Source: Spirochaetota bacterium
GTDB taxonomy: Bacteria > Spirochaetota > UBA4802 > JAFGDQ01
Reading direction: 5' to 3'
DNA length: 64,000 nucleotides
NCBI GenBank assembly: GCA_034190085.1
Contig: JAXHTS010000052.1
Location: forward strand, 62,001-126,000
The notes beneath the pieces are model-generated. The model worked only from the letters and a program-made list of their open reading frames with translations, was not told where the DNA came from and searched no databases. The position numbers were made by a program, and so were the translations under genes. Shown here piece after piece: positions 12,739 to 49,425 of the stretch. Every line of letters starts with the position of its first letter. The stretch's first letter is position 1.

Positions 12739-14706
12739 TCAAGCGAGAAGGCCTTCACTCTCAAGTGTTTGAGCCACATCTTTCATATTGAGTTCATTTA
12801 GCTTGGCCTTTGTTTGGAGACCTGTGGATACATCCCAACCCCTGATATCATAATATTCGTCCATCATCTTCTTAAATGCCTCTCTATCAACAACCATACC
12901 CCTTCTTGAAAAGGGTTCTCCATCCTTTCCAGGCACAAGGCATTCTGGATTGCCAAAGTCTCCTTTTAGGGGATCAATGAAATTGAACTCCTCCAGTGTA
13001 TCATACTCTCTTCCCTTGCGTCCCTCTCTATTATGAACCGCTCTTTGTAGATTATAGATTCGTTCACCAATTTTGTATAGTCCATTTTCATCGATCTCCT
13101 GACCCGTTACTGCTGTATAGAGTTGGCTCTCCAGGGTGGGATCGCCCACATGGTCATCAGATACAGCCGAATATAGGATGGGCCATGTGAAATCACATAG
13201 AATGAGACTCTCCTTTGCATATTGACGATCCTGAATCCTGACTCCAGCCATGGCCTTGCCCTCATATGTTGAAAAATCAGCAGCTACCTCGCTTCCCCAA
13301 AACCTTTTGCCAATCCCTCTAATCGCATCAGAGCTGATGCCAATATTTCTCAAGCTGTCTAACATTGAAAATTCTCCAAGGGGAGATTGTGAAGTTGATG
13401 CTTGGGCTTGAATAGCCCACCTAACGGCCAAGGTGCTTACTTCATGAAGGAGTTGGATCGGAAGCCTGGGCTCAGTTGCATAGAATATACCAGTTGTAAG
13501 GTACATCCTTGCCCCATAGACAGGATTGTAACCGGTTTTTGTGATATAATCTGTAATGAGCTTCTCTCCCTCTTCACCTAAAGTACTGGCTGCCTTGTGG
13601 GTGCCTTGGGCAAGCACATCTCCAAAATCCTCTCGATGTGATATCTTTCTTATCAAGGTCTCAATAAATTCCCTGCTTCCGATTTTAGAAATGGGAATGC
13701 CGGTCTGTTCATCTGTTAAAAGCCCTGACTTATAGCATCTGCTCAACCACATTATCATTGTCTCAACGCCATGGGTATCTAGGCCATAATCATCGCACAG
13801 CTTATTTGCCAGATATGGGACCTCATTGTATTCACCATAATAGCGAAATGCTCGAATTTCATAGAATATAGAAGATTGACACATGAACTTGCCCCTCTTG
13901 CCGTCCTCACCAGGAAAGGTCGCGCGTATGCATGCTCCCATACAACCATAGCATATGTTTTTTTTTAGCCTATCTATAGGAATCATTGGAGAGAGAGGTA
14001 AAACCTCCTTAACAGGCCCTCCAATCATTACCAGTATCTTTTCCTTTATATCCCGAATCTTTTGGCGATTAGCTACATGGATCTTGTTCTCCCCCCTTAC
14101 AGCAATAGCCTTTAGGTTTTTAGAACCCATCACAGATGCTAATCCGCTCGATCCGCTGGAGTCGCTGTCCGCTAAGAAGGTGGAAAAGGTTACGCCATTC
14201 TCGCCAGCAGGGCCAATGGCCACTACTCGAACGGAAGAGCCATGTTTTTCCTTTAGTTCTTCACGGCAGGTAATTGCGCCCTTGCCCATAAGGTGAGTTG
14301 CATCCCTTAGCTCTATATCATCTCCATTGATCCAAAGATAGACAGGTTTATCCGCCCTGCCGTGAAGAACCAGGGCATCAAAACCTGCATGCTTCAATTG
14401 AGCGCCCCATGCGCCGCCTAGATTGCAGAATGAGAACTGATTGTGTATAGGTGATTTTCCACAGACCTGCCACCTGGAACCGGCAAAACCTGTAACCGCT
14501 GTCACAGGGCCAGTAGCAAAGATGAGCCTGCTCTCTGGATCAAATGCCTCAACATGGGGGGGGGATTCATCCCAATATATCTTGACAGCGATACCCCTTC
14601 CCCCTAAGTAAAGATCAGCATAGTCTTCTGTAGGGACTCTTTCATTTAAACCTGTCGAAAGATTTACCTTTAGAATACTTCCAGCATATCCTTTCAAGTA
14701 AGTCAT
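12739..14706 (-). CDS. Aldehyde:ferredoxin oxidoreductase-family tungsten/molybdenum enzyme
   Basis: The 655-residue length and motifs fit the AOR family, which oxidises aldehydes to acids with ferredoxin using a bis-pterin tungsten cofactor and a [4Fe-4S] cluster. Cluster ligands are Cys252, Cys255 and Cys259 (ICYGCMGAC) and a distal Cys504 (LILCDFTWP), matching the CxxCxxxC plus distal Cys pattern. The N-terminal pterin-binding domain is marked by LYLGGRGIAVKIYWDE and SGSSGLASVMGSKNLKAIAV. It is an oxygen-sensitive cytoplasmic enzyme, so it suggests anaerobic growth. GGAGA lies 8 bases before the ATG. It follows the antiporter gene by 23 bases on the same strand. The exact substrate is unknown. 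Confidence 0.9.
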   Translation of the reverse strand: MTYLKGYAGSILKVNLSTGLNERVPTEDYADLYLGGRGIAVKIYWDESPPHVEAFDPESRLIFATGPVTAVTGFAGSRWQVCGKSPIHNQFSFCNLGGAWGAQLKHAGFDALVLHGRADKPVYLWINGDDIELRDATHLMGKGAITCREELKEKHGSSVRVVAIGPAGENGVTFSTFLADSDSSGSSGLASVMGSKNLKAIAVRGENKIHVANRQKIRDIKEKILVMIGGPVKEVLPLSPMIPIDRLKKNICYGCMGACIRATFPGEDGKRGKFMCQSSIFYEIRAFRYYGEYNEVPYLANKLCDDYGLDTHGVETMIMWLSRCYKSGLLTDEQTGIPISKIGSREFIETLIRKISHREDFGDVLAQGTHKAASTLGEEGEKLITDYITKTGYNPVYGARMYLTTGIFYATEPRLPIQLLHEVSTLAVRWAIQAQASTSQSPLGEFSMLDSLRNIGISSDAIRGIGKRFWGSEVAADFSTYEGKAMAGVRIQDRQYAKESLILCDFTWPILYSAVSDDHVGDPTLESQLYTAVTGQEIDENGLYKIGERIYNLQRAVHNREGRKGREYDTLEEFNFIDPLKGDFGNPECLVPGKDGEPFSRRGMVVDREAFKKMMDEYYDIRGWDVSTGLQTKAKLNELNMKDVAQTLESEGLLA

Positions 14707-28873: not shown

Positions 28874-29971
28874 TTGAACGAAGAACGAGTTCATACTAAA
28901 AGAATCAATGTAAGGGGCCTTCCGATCGGGGGTGGAGCTCCTGTATCGATACAGTCGATGACCAATCTTCCCATTGAGGAGGTTGAGGCTACTATTAGAC
29001 AGATTGAAATGCTCAGAGATGAAGGAGCAGATCTTGTTAGGTTAGCAGTAAGAGGGGAAGATTCCATCATTTATCTAAAAGAGATAAGGAGTATGATTGA
29101 TATGCCTTTATCTGCTGATATTCATTTTAACTACAGGATTGCAATAAAGGCTATTAAGGCAGGGATTGATAAAGTAAGAATAAATCCGGGCAATATTGGC
29201 GATCAGAAAAGGGTAAAAGAGATTGTTCGGGTTTGCAAGGAATTTAATGTTCCAATCAGAATTGGTGTAAATAGCGGTTCAATTGATAGGAAAAGATTTC
29301 AGGATGTTTCTGCTCAATCTCTTGTGGCCTCGGCATTGGAGCATATCAATATATTAGAGGATAGTGATTTTTATGATATAATAGTGTCTATAAAATCATC
29401 GGATCTATTTCATACTATAGCCGCAAACAGACTCTTTTCCTCACTAAAGGATTATCCTCTTCATATAGGCCTAACAGAGGCTGGATTTGGCGTGAGTTGT
29501 GTGGTACATAGCGCCATAGCGATAGGTTCTCTGCTCCTTGAAGGGATCGGTGATACTATAAGGGTTTCAATGACTGGCGATCCAGTTGAAGAAATAGTAG
29601 TTGCTAAGAGGATTCTTGAATCTGTAGGGATGAGAAATCCTGTAATTAGGGTTATTTCTTGTCCTACTTGTGGGAGAATTGATCCTTCAGTGAATCTCCT
29701 TGATCTTGCAACTGCAATAGAAGAGGAATTAATGTGTAGGTTTGGTAATGTCCTACAGGATGGGAATAGGAATATCACAGTAGCAGTTATGGGATGTGAG
29801 GTTAATGGCCCTGGCGAGGCTTCACATGCCGATGTCGGAGTAGCTGCTTGTAGGGGGGGGGAGATGTTGCTTTTTTCTGAAGGGCAGAGATTAAATAAGA
29901 TTATGAAGAAGGATGCAGTGGCTTCCCTAAAAAAAGAAGTAGAGAAAATTATTTCGCTTTGGAAAAAGTAA
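28874..29971 (+). CDS. ispG: 4-hydroxy-3-methylbut-2-en-1-yl diphosphate synthase
   Basis: 365 residues of the short bacterial IspG form: INVRGLPIGGGAPVSIQSMTN at the start of the TIM barrel, DIHFNYRIAIKAI, and the C-terminal iron-sulfur domain with CPTCGR and GCEVNGPGEASHADVG providing the cluster cysteines. It reduces methylerythritol cyclodiphosphate in the MEP pathway, the same pathway as dxr. The start is taken as TTG at 28874, with AGGA 12 bases ahead; no closer ATG exists in frame. A nine-base G run (29853-29861) is read through as Arg-Gly-Gly-Glu near the C-terminus. Confidence 0.94.
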   Translation: MNEERVHTKRINVRGLPIGGGAPVSIQSMTNLPIEEVEATIRQIEMLRDEGADLVRLAVRGEDSIIYLKEIRSMIDMPLSADIHFNYRIAIKAIKAGIDKVRINPGNIGDQKRVKEIVRVCKEFNVPIRIGVNSGSIDRKRFQDVSAQSLVASALEHINILEDSDFYDIIVSIKSSDLFHTIAANRLFSSLKDYPLHIGLTEAGFGVSCVVHSAIAIGSLLLEGIGDTIRVSMTGDPVEEIVVAKRILESVGMRNPVIRVISCPTCGRIDPSVNLLDLATAIEEELMCRFGNVLQDGNRNITVAVMGCEVNGPGEASHADVGVAACRGGEMLLFSEGQRLNKIMKKDAVASLKKEVEKIISLWKK

Positions 29972-39149: not shown

Positions 39150-40196
39150 TTAGAACCACTCGATTACCTTGTTACCTAATAGAATAACCCTATCCTTCAA
39201 CTCTTCGGAGGCAGAGATATTCATATCAAGATCAATGAATACCGCTGAAATATTTTTGTCATGTTTTACAAATTGCATAGCTTTTCTTCCCCCCATAATG
39301 AATAGGGCTGTGGCTAGTGCATCGGACTGCACGGGATCAATGGATATCACTGAAACGGAGGAGAAGGTTTTCGATGGGAAGCCGGTTTTAGGATCGATTA
39401 TGTGATGATATCTCTTATCCTTGTATATGACGTATCTCTCATAATCTCCGCTTGTGGCAATGGATTCCATATCATCAAGGGTTAGGGAAAGGATAATATT
39501 TTTCTCTCTGGGATTCCTAACACCTACGCGCCATGGATTATTAAACTTCTTCCCAATTACTTGAAGATCTCCGCCTGCCTCAACAATAGCGCAATCTATC
39601 CCTATTCTCCTTAAACATTCGATACCCTTATTTATAGCATATCCCTTGGCTATTCCACCAAGACCAATTCGTGTTTTCCTGTTATTTATTTTAACGCTGA
39701 GATTATCAGGATTAAGTTGAATATGTCGATAATCTAACATCGGTAATAGCTTCAAAACCTCATCTCTTCTTGGCGGCACAAAGGGATTTCTACGGAAATT
39801 CCATAGATGGGAAATTGAGGCAAAGGTTATATCAAAACAACCATTAGTTCTAGTGGATGTCTCAATAGAGGTTTCTAATAATGAAAAGGTCTCTTCAGAT
39901 ACAATCACAGGTCTCTTCATGGCAAGGTTGTTTATTCTGTAAACATCGCTCTCCTGTCTGAAGGGACTCATTATTTTCTCTAGGCGACCTATTTCATTGA
40001 ACACAAGTTCAGCAGACCTATTCGCTCTTTTCTCGGAGTCCGTGATTAGTGTAAGATTTACTATAGTCCCGAGGAGAGATGTGTTGTGATTGTAGATGGA
40101 TTTCTTTTTGCATGAGTTGAGTAATAATGAAACCGATAGAAACAATATTATCACCCTACAAGGACTATATCTATATTGTAAGTTAAGGCTGATCAT
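39150..40196 (-). CDS. apbE: FAD:protein FMN transferase ApbE, lipoprotein
   Basis: A 348-residue exported ApbE. The signal ends at Cys29 (LLLNSC), a spirochaete-style lipobox, placing it on the periplasmic face. Enzyme motifs: GTIVNLTLI, FRQESDVYRINN, GCFDITFASISHLWNFRRNP, the Mg/FAD-binding GLGGIAKGYAINKG, VEAGGDLQVIG, ATSGDYERYVIYKDKRYHHIIDPKTG and SDALATALFIMGG. It attaches FMN covalently to Thr/Ser of target flavoproteins, such as subunits of Na+-pumping or Rnf complexes. It starts directly after the stop of the (broken) HAD gene (TAA-ATG), so the two were one operon. Confidence 0.93.
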   Translation of the reverse strand: MISLNLQYRYSPCRVIILFLSVSLLLNSCKKKSIYNHNTSLLGTIVNLTLITDSEKRANRSAELVFNEIGRLEKIMSPFRQESDVYRINNLAMKRPVIVSEETFSLLETSIETSTRTNGCFDITFASISHLWNFRRNPFVPPRRDEVLKLLPMLDYRHIQLNPDNLSVKINNRKTRIGLGGIAKGYAINKGIECLRRIGIDCAIVEAGGDLQVIGKKFNNPWRVGVRNPREKNIILSLTLDDMESIATSGDYERYVIYKDKRYHHIIDPKTGFPSKTFSSVSVISIDPVQSDALATALFIMGGRKAMQFVKHDKNISAVFIDLDMNISASEELKDRVILLGNKVIEWF

Positions 40197-40878
40197 TTAT
40201 CTTAATTCCTTTTCAATTGTTCTAATAATACACGGAATCTTGCTGAATCTATTAACTCTCCATTTTAAGTCTTTGAACTCGTTGTTTTCTGAAAATCCGA
40301 AAGAGCATCCTATAAAGGGAATTCCGTTCTCTATTGCTGCGATCATATCTGACTCCCTATCCCCGATCATTATAAGCAGATTATTTTTAGAAATGGTTTC
40401 CTTATAGTATCTAACAATATCGTTTTTCCCTCGAATCATGTTATCAATGGTTACAATAGGATAGGTGAAATATTTTTTTATATCCTTTGAATTTAGTATT
40501 GCTTCAATATAGTCTATTTTTCCATTGGAAGCAACAAGCATTGTATAACCTCTATTATAAATAGTCTCTAGCGTTACATAGACATCATCAAAGAGTTCCC
40601 CCCCCCCCCTCACATATTATCTGAGCCAAGCCCTGAGTACAGTAATCCACTACACGTTTAAGGTGATGGGCCCCTAATTCAGGAAAGAGTCTCTTAAATA
40701 TTATATCTGTAGGCATCCCGATCATTGACATTATTATATCTTTGTTTGGCAAGGCGATATCCATTGATGATTGTTTATTGAATATAGCAATACCAAGCTG
40801 GAAAGCATCTATAATAATGTCATTACAATCGAATATAGTGCCGTCTATGTCAAAGGCTATATAGGTCATATAATACAT
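40197..40878 (-). pseudogene. HAD-superfamily phosphatase, frameshifted at a 12-base G tract
   Basis: Two out-of-phase pieces together make one HAD hydrolase of about 220 residues. The N-terminal piece (start ATG 40878, or the ATG at 40869) has motif I AFDIDGTIFDCND and the helical cap, ending in IICEGGGGTL and a stop. The C-terminal piece continues in the other frame with GGGELFDDVYVTLETIYNRGY, motif II VASNGKID and motifs III/IV (GDRESDMIAAIENG). The join is at the run of 12 C on the plus strand (40598-40609); 11 or 14 bases would restore one frame. It resembles phosphoglycolate-phosphatase-type (Cof/PGP) HADs. Either a true phase-variable off state or a length error in sequencing. Confidence 0.8.
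40598..40609. repeat. Mononucleotide tract of 12 C (12 G on the coding strand)
   Basis: Inside the HAD phosphatase gene. Coding strand reads GAG, then a G run, then AACTC. A run of 12 gives a stop soon after; 11 or 14 gives an intact frame. It is the longest homopolymer of G/C that I see in the window. Confidence 0.9.
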
Positions 40879-41030
40879 ATTTATTATTACTTACTCTTTG
40901 TTGCAACCAAAATTGTGTTTATACTTCTATAGAAAGGAGAGTGAGGGATTTTATTCCTTGACTGGAATAATTTGATATTGTGTTTATATGTCAATGTATA
41001 AAGACATAAATGATCGTGGGGTATGGCATA

Positions 41031-41969
41031 TTGGATCTATCTATTCAGATAGGGGACTTTAAATTAAAGAATCCTATTTCCCTGGCTTCCGGTACAGCTG
41101 GATATGGGGAGGAGTTAGCTGTATTTATGGATATCTCACGTATTGGCGCTATCTTTACAAAGGGAATCTCGTTAGAGCCAAGAAGGGGTAACAGGGGACC
41201 CAGAATAGTCGAAACACCATCAGGTGTTTTAAACTCCATAGGTCTTGAAAATATTGGTTTGAATAGATTTTTGAAGGAGAAATTACCCTTTCTTTTGGAA
41301 AGGGGAGCAACAGTTATTCCAAATATTGCTGGATATTCTATTGATGAGAATGTGGAATTATGTAGGATATTGTCGAATACCAATGGGATACCTGCAGTGG
41401 AGTTAAATGTATCATGCCCGAATGTTAGCAAGGGGGGTATGGCTTTTGGGAGAGAGATGAATATCTTTTCAAAACTTATAAAGAGGGTAAGGAGAACCAC
41501 GGACAAGGTTTTAATAGTAAAATTATCTCCAAATGTTGCTGATGTTGTTGAGTTCGCTTCTGCTGCAAAAGATTTAGGGGCAGATGCAGTTTCTGCTGTT
41601 AACACATATTTGGGTATGAAAATAGATATAGAGAGAAGGAAGCCGCTTTTTTTTAATAAAGTTGCGGGTCTCAGCGGACCAGCGATAAGACCCCTTGCAG
41701 TAAGGACAGTATATGAGATATTTGATAGAGTCGATATACCAATAATTGGTATTGGCGGGATTACAGATATTGATGATGTTATTGAATTTATAATGGCAGG
41801 CGCTTCAGTAATATCAATCGGCACTATGAATATGATTAATCCAAGGGCGGGGATAGAATGCCTTGAAAATCTTGAAGAATATATGGAAATTCGAGGTATC
41901 AATTCCATGCATGAACTAATCGGATCAGCTCATAAGGGCTTTAATAAGAAACAATGGAGTGAGATATGA
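41031..41969 (+). CDS. pyrD: Dihydroorotate dehydrogenase, class 1B-type
   Basis: A TIM-barrel FMN enzyme oxidising dihydroorotate to orotate in pyrimidine synthesis. Motifs: FKLKNPISLASGTAGYGEE, GNRGPRIVETPSGVLNSIGL, VELNVSCPN with Cys as the catalytic base (class 1; class 2 uses Ser), VKLSPNVADVVE and IPIIGIGGITDIDDVIEFI. Cys indicates the cytosolic NAD-linked 1B form, which normally pairs with PyrK, not seen here. I start at TTG 41031 because GTGGGG (41016-41021) is 9 bases upstream and family members begin MDLS; the ATG at 41010 has no ribosome site. hisC overlaps its end by 4 bases. Confidence 0.92.
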   Translation: MDLSIQIGDFKLKNPISLASGTAGYGEELAVFMDISRIGAIFTKGISLEPRRGNRGPRIVETPSGVLNSIGLENIGLNRFLKEKLPFLLERGATVIPNIAGYSIDENVELCRILSNTNGIPAVELNVSCPNVSKGGMAFGREMNIFSKLIKRVRRTTDKVLIVKLSPNVADVVEFASAAKDLGADAVSAVNTYLGMKIDIERRKPLFFNKVAGLSGPAIRPLAVRTVYEIFDRVDIPIIGIGGITDIDDVIEFIMAGASVISIGTMNMINPRAGIECLENLEEYMEIRGINSMHELIGSAHKGFNKKQWSEI

Positions 41970-43018
41970 GATACTGGAATAGTCGATTACAGAAGATGTC
42001 AGCATATATTCCAGGGGAACAACCTGATAAGATAAATGAGTATATTAAGCTGAATACAAATGAGAATCCATTTTCACCATCAGAGGTGGTTCTGAATGCG
42101 ATAAAGAGTGCATGTAATGAACAACTGAGACTGTATCCCAATGTCACCTCTCAGTCTCTGAGGGAATCCTTTGCAAAGTTGAATAATATCGAAGTGGATA
42201 ATATTTTTGTGGGCAATGGATCTGATGAAATATTTACACTTATATTTAGAGGTTTTATTGATCCAGATGGATCGGCTGCTTTCCCCTATCCATCATATTC
42301 ACTCTATTATACAATGGCAGAGGCAAATGGTATAAAATATGATAGGATAAATCTCACAGATGAAATGGATGTCGATTTTACTAGATTCCTCGAAAAGCAG
42401 TATAACTTAGTAATAGTAGGCAATCCAAACAATCCAACTGGAAAGGGTTGTGATGAGGATGAAATAAGGATTTTTTTAGATCAATTTAACGGGCTTTTGG
42501 TTGTGGATGAGGCTTATGTAGATTTCTATGGCGAGACAGTGATTGAATTAGTCGAGGATTATGATAATCTCATAGTGACTAGATCATTCTCAAAATCCTA
42601 CTCTCTAGCTGGGCTTAGGATTGGTCTTGCTGTAGCAAATAGGGATATAATTAAGGGTTTATTTAAGCTGAAGGATTCTTATAATGTTGACAGACTCGCT
42701 GAAGTTGGGGCAAGGGCCGCATTGCTTGATATTAAGGGATTTGAATATAATATCCGCTTGGTGCTCGATAATAAGGAGTACTTAGAGGAGAATCTCGAAG
42801 AACTCGGTTTTGATATCATACCATCAAAGGCAAACTTCTTGTTTGTCAAACATCCGGAAATGCCTTCCAAGGATATCTTCGAGTTGTTAAAGGAGAAAAA
42901 GATATTGGTAAGGTATTTCGATGGATCAATTCAGTCAGACTATATTAGAATTACTGTTGGCACAATGTTAGAATTGAAAGCACTAATAAAGGAACTAACC
43001 TCTATATTGGAAGCCTGA
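41966..43018 (+). CDS. hisC: Histidinol-phosphate aminotransferase
   Basis: 350-residue class I/II aminotransferase of the HisC group: KLNTNENPFSPSEVV at the N-terminus, VGNGSDEIFTLIFRGF, GNPNNPTGKGC, VVDEAYVDFYG, and the PLP lysine Lys210 in TRSFSKSYSLAGLRIG. It converts imidazole-acetol phosphate and Glu to histidinol phosphate. Its ATG overlaps the pyrD stop (ATGA), so they are translationally coupled although they belong to different pathways. Its 3' end overlaps the convergent lipoprotein gene by 17 bases. Confidence 0.93.
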   Translation: MRYWNSRLQKMSAYIPGEQPDKINEYIKLNTNENPFSPSEVVLNAIKSACNEQLRLYPNVTSQSLRESFAKLNNIEVDNIFVGNGSDEIFTLIFRGFIDPDGSAAFPYPSYSLYYTMAEANGIKYDRINLTDEMDVDFTRFLEKQYNLVIVGNPNNPTGKGCDEDEIRIFLDQFNGLLVVDEAYVDFYGETVIELVEDYDNLIVTRSFSKSYSLAGLRIGLAVANRDIIKGLFKLKDSYNVDRLAEVGARAALLDIKGFEYNIRLVLDNKEYLEENLEELGFDIIPSKANFLFVKHPEMPSKDIFELLKEKKILVRYFDGSIQSDYIRITVGTMLELKALIKELTSILEA

Positions 43019-49416: not shown

Positions 49417-49425
49417 CCCCCCCCC
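49417..49425 (-). repeat. G9 tract in the ribosome-binding region of the B12-binding gene
   Basis: On the minus strand GGGGGGGGGAGAT directly precedes the ATG at 49412. The G run with AG acts as the Shine-Dalgarno sequence; changing its length would shift spacing and strength. Confidence 0.8.

Follow-up and report, generated by a model that had tools for sequence, protein, structure and literature searches.

A HAD-family phosphatase gene in an uncultured spirochaete is split, as assembled, at a run of twelve G, and we consider it quite likely that the run arose by chance and that its twelfth G reflects either a length change of recent date or an erroneous length in the consensus, with no evolved switch involved. 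In support of this reading, the homologues are unbroken, the run is not conserved among them, there is no genome-wide pattern of frame-breaking runs, the 3' part of the gene has not decayed, and the neighbourhood is conserved. A recent or technical origin of the change is our inference, and we give about equal weight to a real recent slip and to a length error.

The split gene and its neighbourhood

Within the window, by which we mean the whole 64,000-nucleotide stretch that was analysed, the run is read as C12 on the plus strand and therefore as G12 in the coding sense of the minus-strand HAD gene; it is exactly 12 bases long and lies where the first-pass annotation had placed it (Table 1). 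It is the longest G/C run of the 4.27-Mb assembly (86 contigs, 96% complete). The tract region is single copy, and the assembly holds no second copy or alternative contig with a different tract length. Three genomes of the family were compared, and DNA matches to the other two stop short of spanning the tract. A poly-G read-tail artefact was rejected as its source, since the run lies mid-contig with the same gene flanking it on both sides.

Table 1. Coordinates, in the window, of the G12 run, the two pieces of the HAD gene and the neighbouring genes.
Feature	Position	Strand	Remarks
apbE (FAD:protein FMN transferase family)	39150..40196	-	PF02424, E 2.9e-79; intact separate ORF
HAD gene, 3' piece	40197..40597	-	other frame; SN and GDRxSD motifs; natural stop
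HAD gene, 5' piece	40588..40878	-	96 aa; DxDGT motif; stop just past the run
G12 run (C12 on +)	40598..40609	-	codons 90-94 of the HAD gene
pyrD-like (dihydroorotate dehydrogenase)	41010..41969	+	named from sequence; divergent neighbour, arrangement kept in relatives
hisC-like aminotransferase gene	41966..43018	+	named from sequence; after pyrD here and in relatives

The 5' piece of the gene starts MYYMTYIAFDIDGT..., crosses the run into ...CEGGGGTL and meets a stop codon 7 nt past the tract, while a different frame stays open through the rest of the protein, LFDDVYVTLETIYNRGYTMLVASNGK...EKELR. The gene is thus divided exactly at the homopolymer, as the first-pass annotation had stated, and its arithmetic was also correct in that a tract of 11 or 14 bases would give one intact HAD frame. 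The same annotation had this protein joined to apbE, which is wrong: apbE is an ORF of its own, beginning on the base directly after the HAD stop. The two genes are probably co-transcribed.

Both pieces match the Pfam HAD_2 profile (PF13419) above the gathering score, the 5' piece at profile positions 1-67 and the 3' piece at 79-177. The motifs by which the HAD superfamily is recognised occur in the two pieces as listed in Table 1, and in the assembled sequence they are not found on one unbroken chain, the gene being split at the run. The NCBIfam models for phosphoglycolate phosphatase and PpaX match far below their cut-offs, and every equivalog cut-off is missed. Judged from its sequence, the product is an ordinary HAD-family phosphatase, to which we assign no substrate.

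Beyond the tract, the 3' piece contains no additional stop or shift. Its mean identity to outgroup homologues is 43.0%, close to what the two family members show with their intact genes (44.6 and 45.5%), and the corresponding values for the 5' piece are 39.9% against 40.1 and 38.2%. By these measures the gene carries no sign of decay.

In many relatives hisC and pyrD are likewise divergent from the HAD gene, and in several, among them G002 of the same family, apbE follows the HAD gene. The hisC-pyrD / HAD-apbE order (window 39150-43018; loci L086-L102) is conserved across an order of uncultured spirochaetes. With this gene content the locus is housekeeping-like and conserved.

Homologues and homopolymer runs

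The search for homologues covered 59 genomes, whose relatedness ranges from the same family to the same phylum. The HAD gene was matched in 34 of them and had no match in 25; the named relatives that carry it are almost all uncultured Spirochaetes/Spirochaetota MAGs. Counting only the homologues that could be aligned cleanly (n=27; rows L053, translated on the wrong strand, and L065, which ends in a stop, were left out), all 27 are unbroken at the tract position, and the window protein aligns to the homologues without gaps when the tract is taken as 11 bases. Three glycines are encoded at the site, and Gly-Gly-Gly is present in many homologues, where it is spelled with mixed codons (GGC GGA GGC, GGG GGA GGA, GGC GGG GGT, GGT GGA GGC, etc.), so that no G or C run in any of the 27 genes exceeds 7 bases. 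The tract is therefore best explained by chance, as one particular spelling of a widespread Gly-Gly-Gly segment. From the glycine codon usage of the window, the probability of three consecutive GGG codons is about 0.008.

Under a first-order dinucleotide model of the window, 0.23 G/C runs of at least 12 bases are expected per genome and about 0.003 per 64 kb, while three runs of at least 10 bases were found in the genome (10, 11 and 12 bases) against 3.8 expected from the dinucleotide model. A G12 run is rare at a given spot, yet unremarkable genome-wide. The 11-base run is intergenic, and the 10-base run falls close to where a 94-aa ORF ends. Lowering the threshold to runs of at least 8 bases gives 46 in the assembly, 33 of them in ORFs of 200 aa or more, which they leave unbroken, and 12 elsewhere; the HAD tract is the sole frame break. 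For frame breaks we used this ORF-based test in preference to a codon-usage frame classifier, which called the HAD tract a 'gene edge', because the score of the classifier is weak on one side of the tract. Over-representation or recurrence of runs in a gene set, a feature that supports phase variation without being obligatory for it, was not found in this genome, and a genome-wide phase-variable repertoire was rejected. In the window itself, 9-base G/C runs at 14556-14564 and 29853-29861 lie in long open frames and another at 49417-49425 lies in a 165-aa ORF; none of them breaks a frame.

Among 46 genomes of the order, exact 11- and 12-base G/C runs are scattered, and by the test applied the HAD tract alone breaks a gene. 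One relative (G045, L156) has an 11-G run that seemed to break a frame; this candidate was rejected, as the run proved to be intergenic, upstream of a GTPase gene, with chance-like ORFs around it. In another relative a near-palindromic C18-T-C11-GA-G12 block (L166 1483-1526; G012:C7, around 272879) adjoins a contig end, and genome G052 has long poly-G runs close to contig ends; both look like assembly or read-chemistry artefacts. Loss of mismatch repair was rejected for the genome studied here, where mutS and mutL were both found.

A/T runs of at least 10 bases are mostly intergenic, and several lie unbroken within genes. One A10 run on the minus strand (G000:C54:43014-43023, L128) marks the exact split of a putative cobaltochelatase (TIGR02442) into I-like and D-like ORFs, whereas the counterpart in G002 and in G017 is a single ORF of about 700 aa. 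Separate cobaltochelatase I and D genes occur in many organisms, and the I/D split here could possibly be a natural separation of subunits. On the comparison of ORFs, the gene may be broken at the A10 run. If it truly is, breaks would be present at two runs that rank among the longest found within genes of this genome, in unrelated enzymes, which would point to a generic indel process (a replication slip or a consensus-length error) and not to a dedicated HAD switch. A further apparent A10 break (L117) was set aside, its stop codon starting ahead of the run.

Explanations for the frame break

On the chance reading, the Gly-Gly-Gly that is common in the family happens here to be spelled GGG GGG GGG, and the flanking Glu codons, one ending in G and the other starting with G, add one G at each end, which yields 11 G when the frame is kept. 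Runs of this kind readily gain or lose a single base. The 12 bases of the assembly would then stem either from a replication slip that occurred recently, and without selection, in the cells that were sampled, or from an error of length in the reads or consensus. Illumina sequencing can yield spurious homopolymer indels, mostly at runs longer than 14 bases, and at most 1% of genes were affected in a metagenomic set (PMC8808543). As most such errors fall beyond 14 bases, a 12-base run is near the safe side, which counts against a length error, and so do the many 8-9-base runs that are fine in the same assembly.

The first-pass annotation had taken the tract as a phase-variation switch, and had named as one alternative a length error, which the reading above keeps as one of its two possible causes. 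In a phase-variation switch, slipped-strand mispairing at the G run would reversibly toggle the HAD phosphatase and perhaps, via coupled translation, ApbE. A 12-G run does lie inside an ORF, with an intact protein at another length, so that ON and OFF frames would be set by tract length as in homopolymer phase-variable genes; poly-G tracts of at least 8 bases mediate switching in Campylobacter jejuni (PMC6321876), and polarity is conceivable from the way the HAD stop adjoins the apbE start. The proposal nevertheless finds no support here: no homologue conserves the run, whose retention in homologues would be a supporting, though not obligatory, feature of such genes; runs are not in excess in the genome, where no further G/C run breaks a frame; both MutS and MutL are encoded; and the gene, which is no surface or restriction gene, specifies a conserved enzyme and has housekeeping-type neighbours. 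We regard phase variation as very improbable, and possible only as a species-specific novelty. A poly-G contingency switch confined to this uncultured spirochaete species, and acquired by its housekeeping HAD phosphatase-apbE operon, appears a shade less probable still; if it were true, a metabolic step, perhaps ApbE flavinylation, would differ between cells.

A somewhat better, though still unlikely, alternative is slippage rescue, in which RNA polymerase or the ribosome would slip within the G run so that the out-of-frame DNA still yields some full-length protein. The undecayed 3' piece would be accounted for, and there are precedents: an A11 run in Citrobacter tssM restores about 20-25% (PMC4256274), and runs of at least 7 T let the E. 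coli RNA polymerase slip productively (PMC6260861). These precedents, however, concern A/T runs, and only +1 or -2 would restore the frame here, a -1 shift hitting a stop within 8 codons. Programmed transcriptional slippage would call for a slippery run conserved in orthologues, and none was found among the homologues. Least probable of all, in our judgement, is a true, fixed pseudogene, that is, loss of the HAD gene in this species. The lack of a match in 25 of the 59 genomes searched does indicate that the gene is dispensable somewhere, but there is no second lesion, and both halves keep HAD motifs and conserved residues.

The chance-run reading carries a caution, namely that a frame broken at a long G run in a draft assembly calls for comparison with homologues and reads before it is put down to phase variation. 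Should reads show length variation, an uncultured lineage would offer the unusual case of a contingency switch acting on a metabolic enzyme.

Comparison with known systems

The phase-variable poly-G genes of Campylobacter share with the HAD gene a long coding-strand G run within an ORF, at which one-base changes shift the frame (PMC6321876). Their runs exceed chance, number many per genome and vary between relatives; in C. jejuni, poly-G tracts of at least 7 bases are commoner than chance, and a PhasomeIt study of Campylobacter counted 5-81 phase-variable genes per strain (PMC6321876). Here, in contrast, a single run breaks a frame, there is no excess, no homologue has the run, and a single assembled length is known.

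The tssM1 gene of Citrobacter rodentium (A11, PMC4256274) resembles the HAD gene in having a stop soon after a long homopolymer, with the continuation open in another frame. The HAD run differs in consisting of G and not A, in being unconserved, and in being known from the DNA sequence alone.

The gene also resembles the HAD_2 phosphatases (PF13419) of the phosphoglycolate phosphatase/PpaX-like kind. Unlike them, the assembled gene is split, and it scores far below every NCBIfam equivalog cut-off; what it shares with them are the HAD motifs and the alignment of its two pieces to consecutive parts of one profile.
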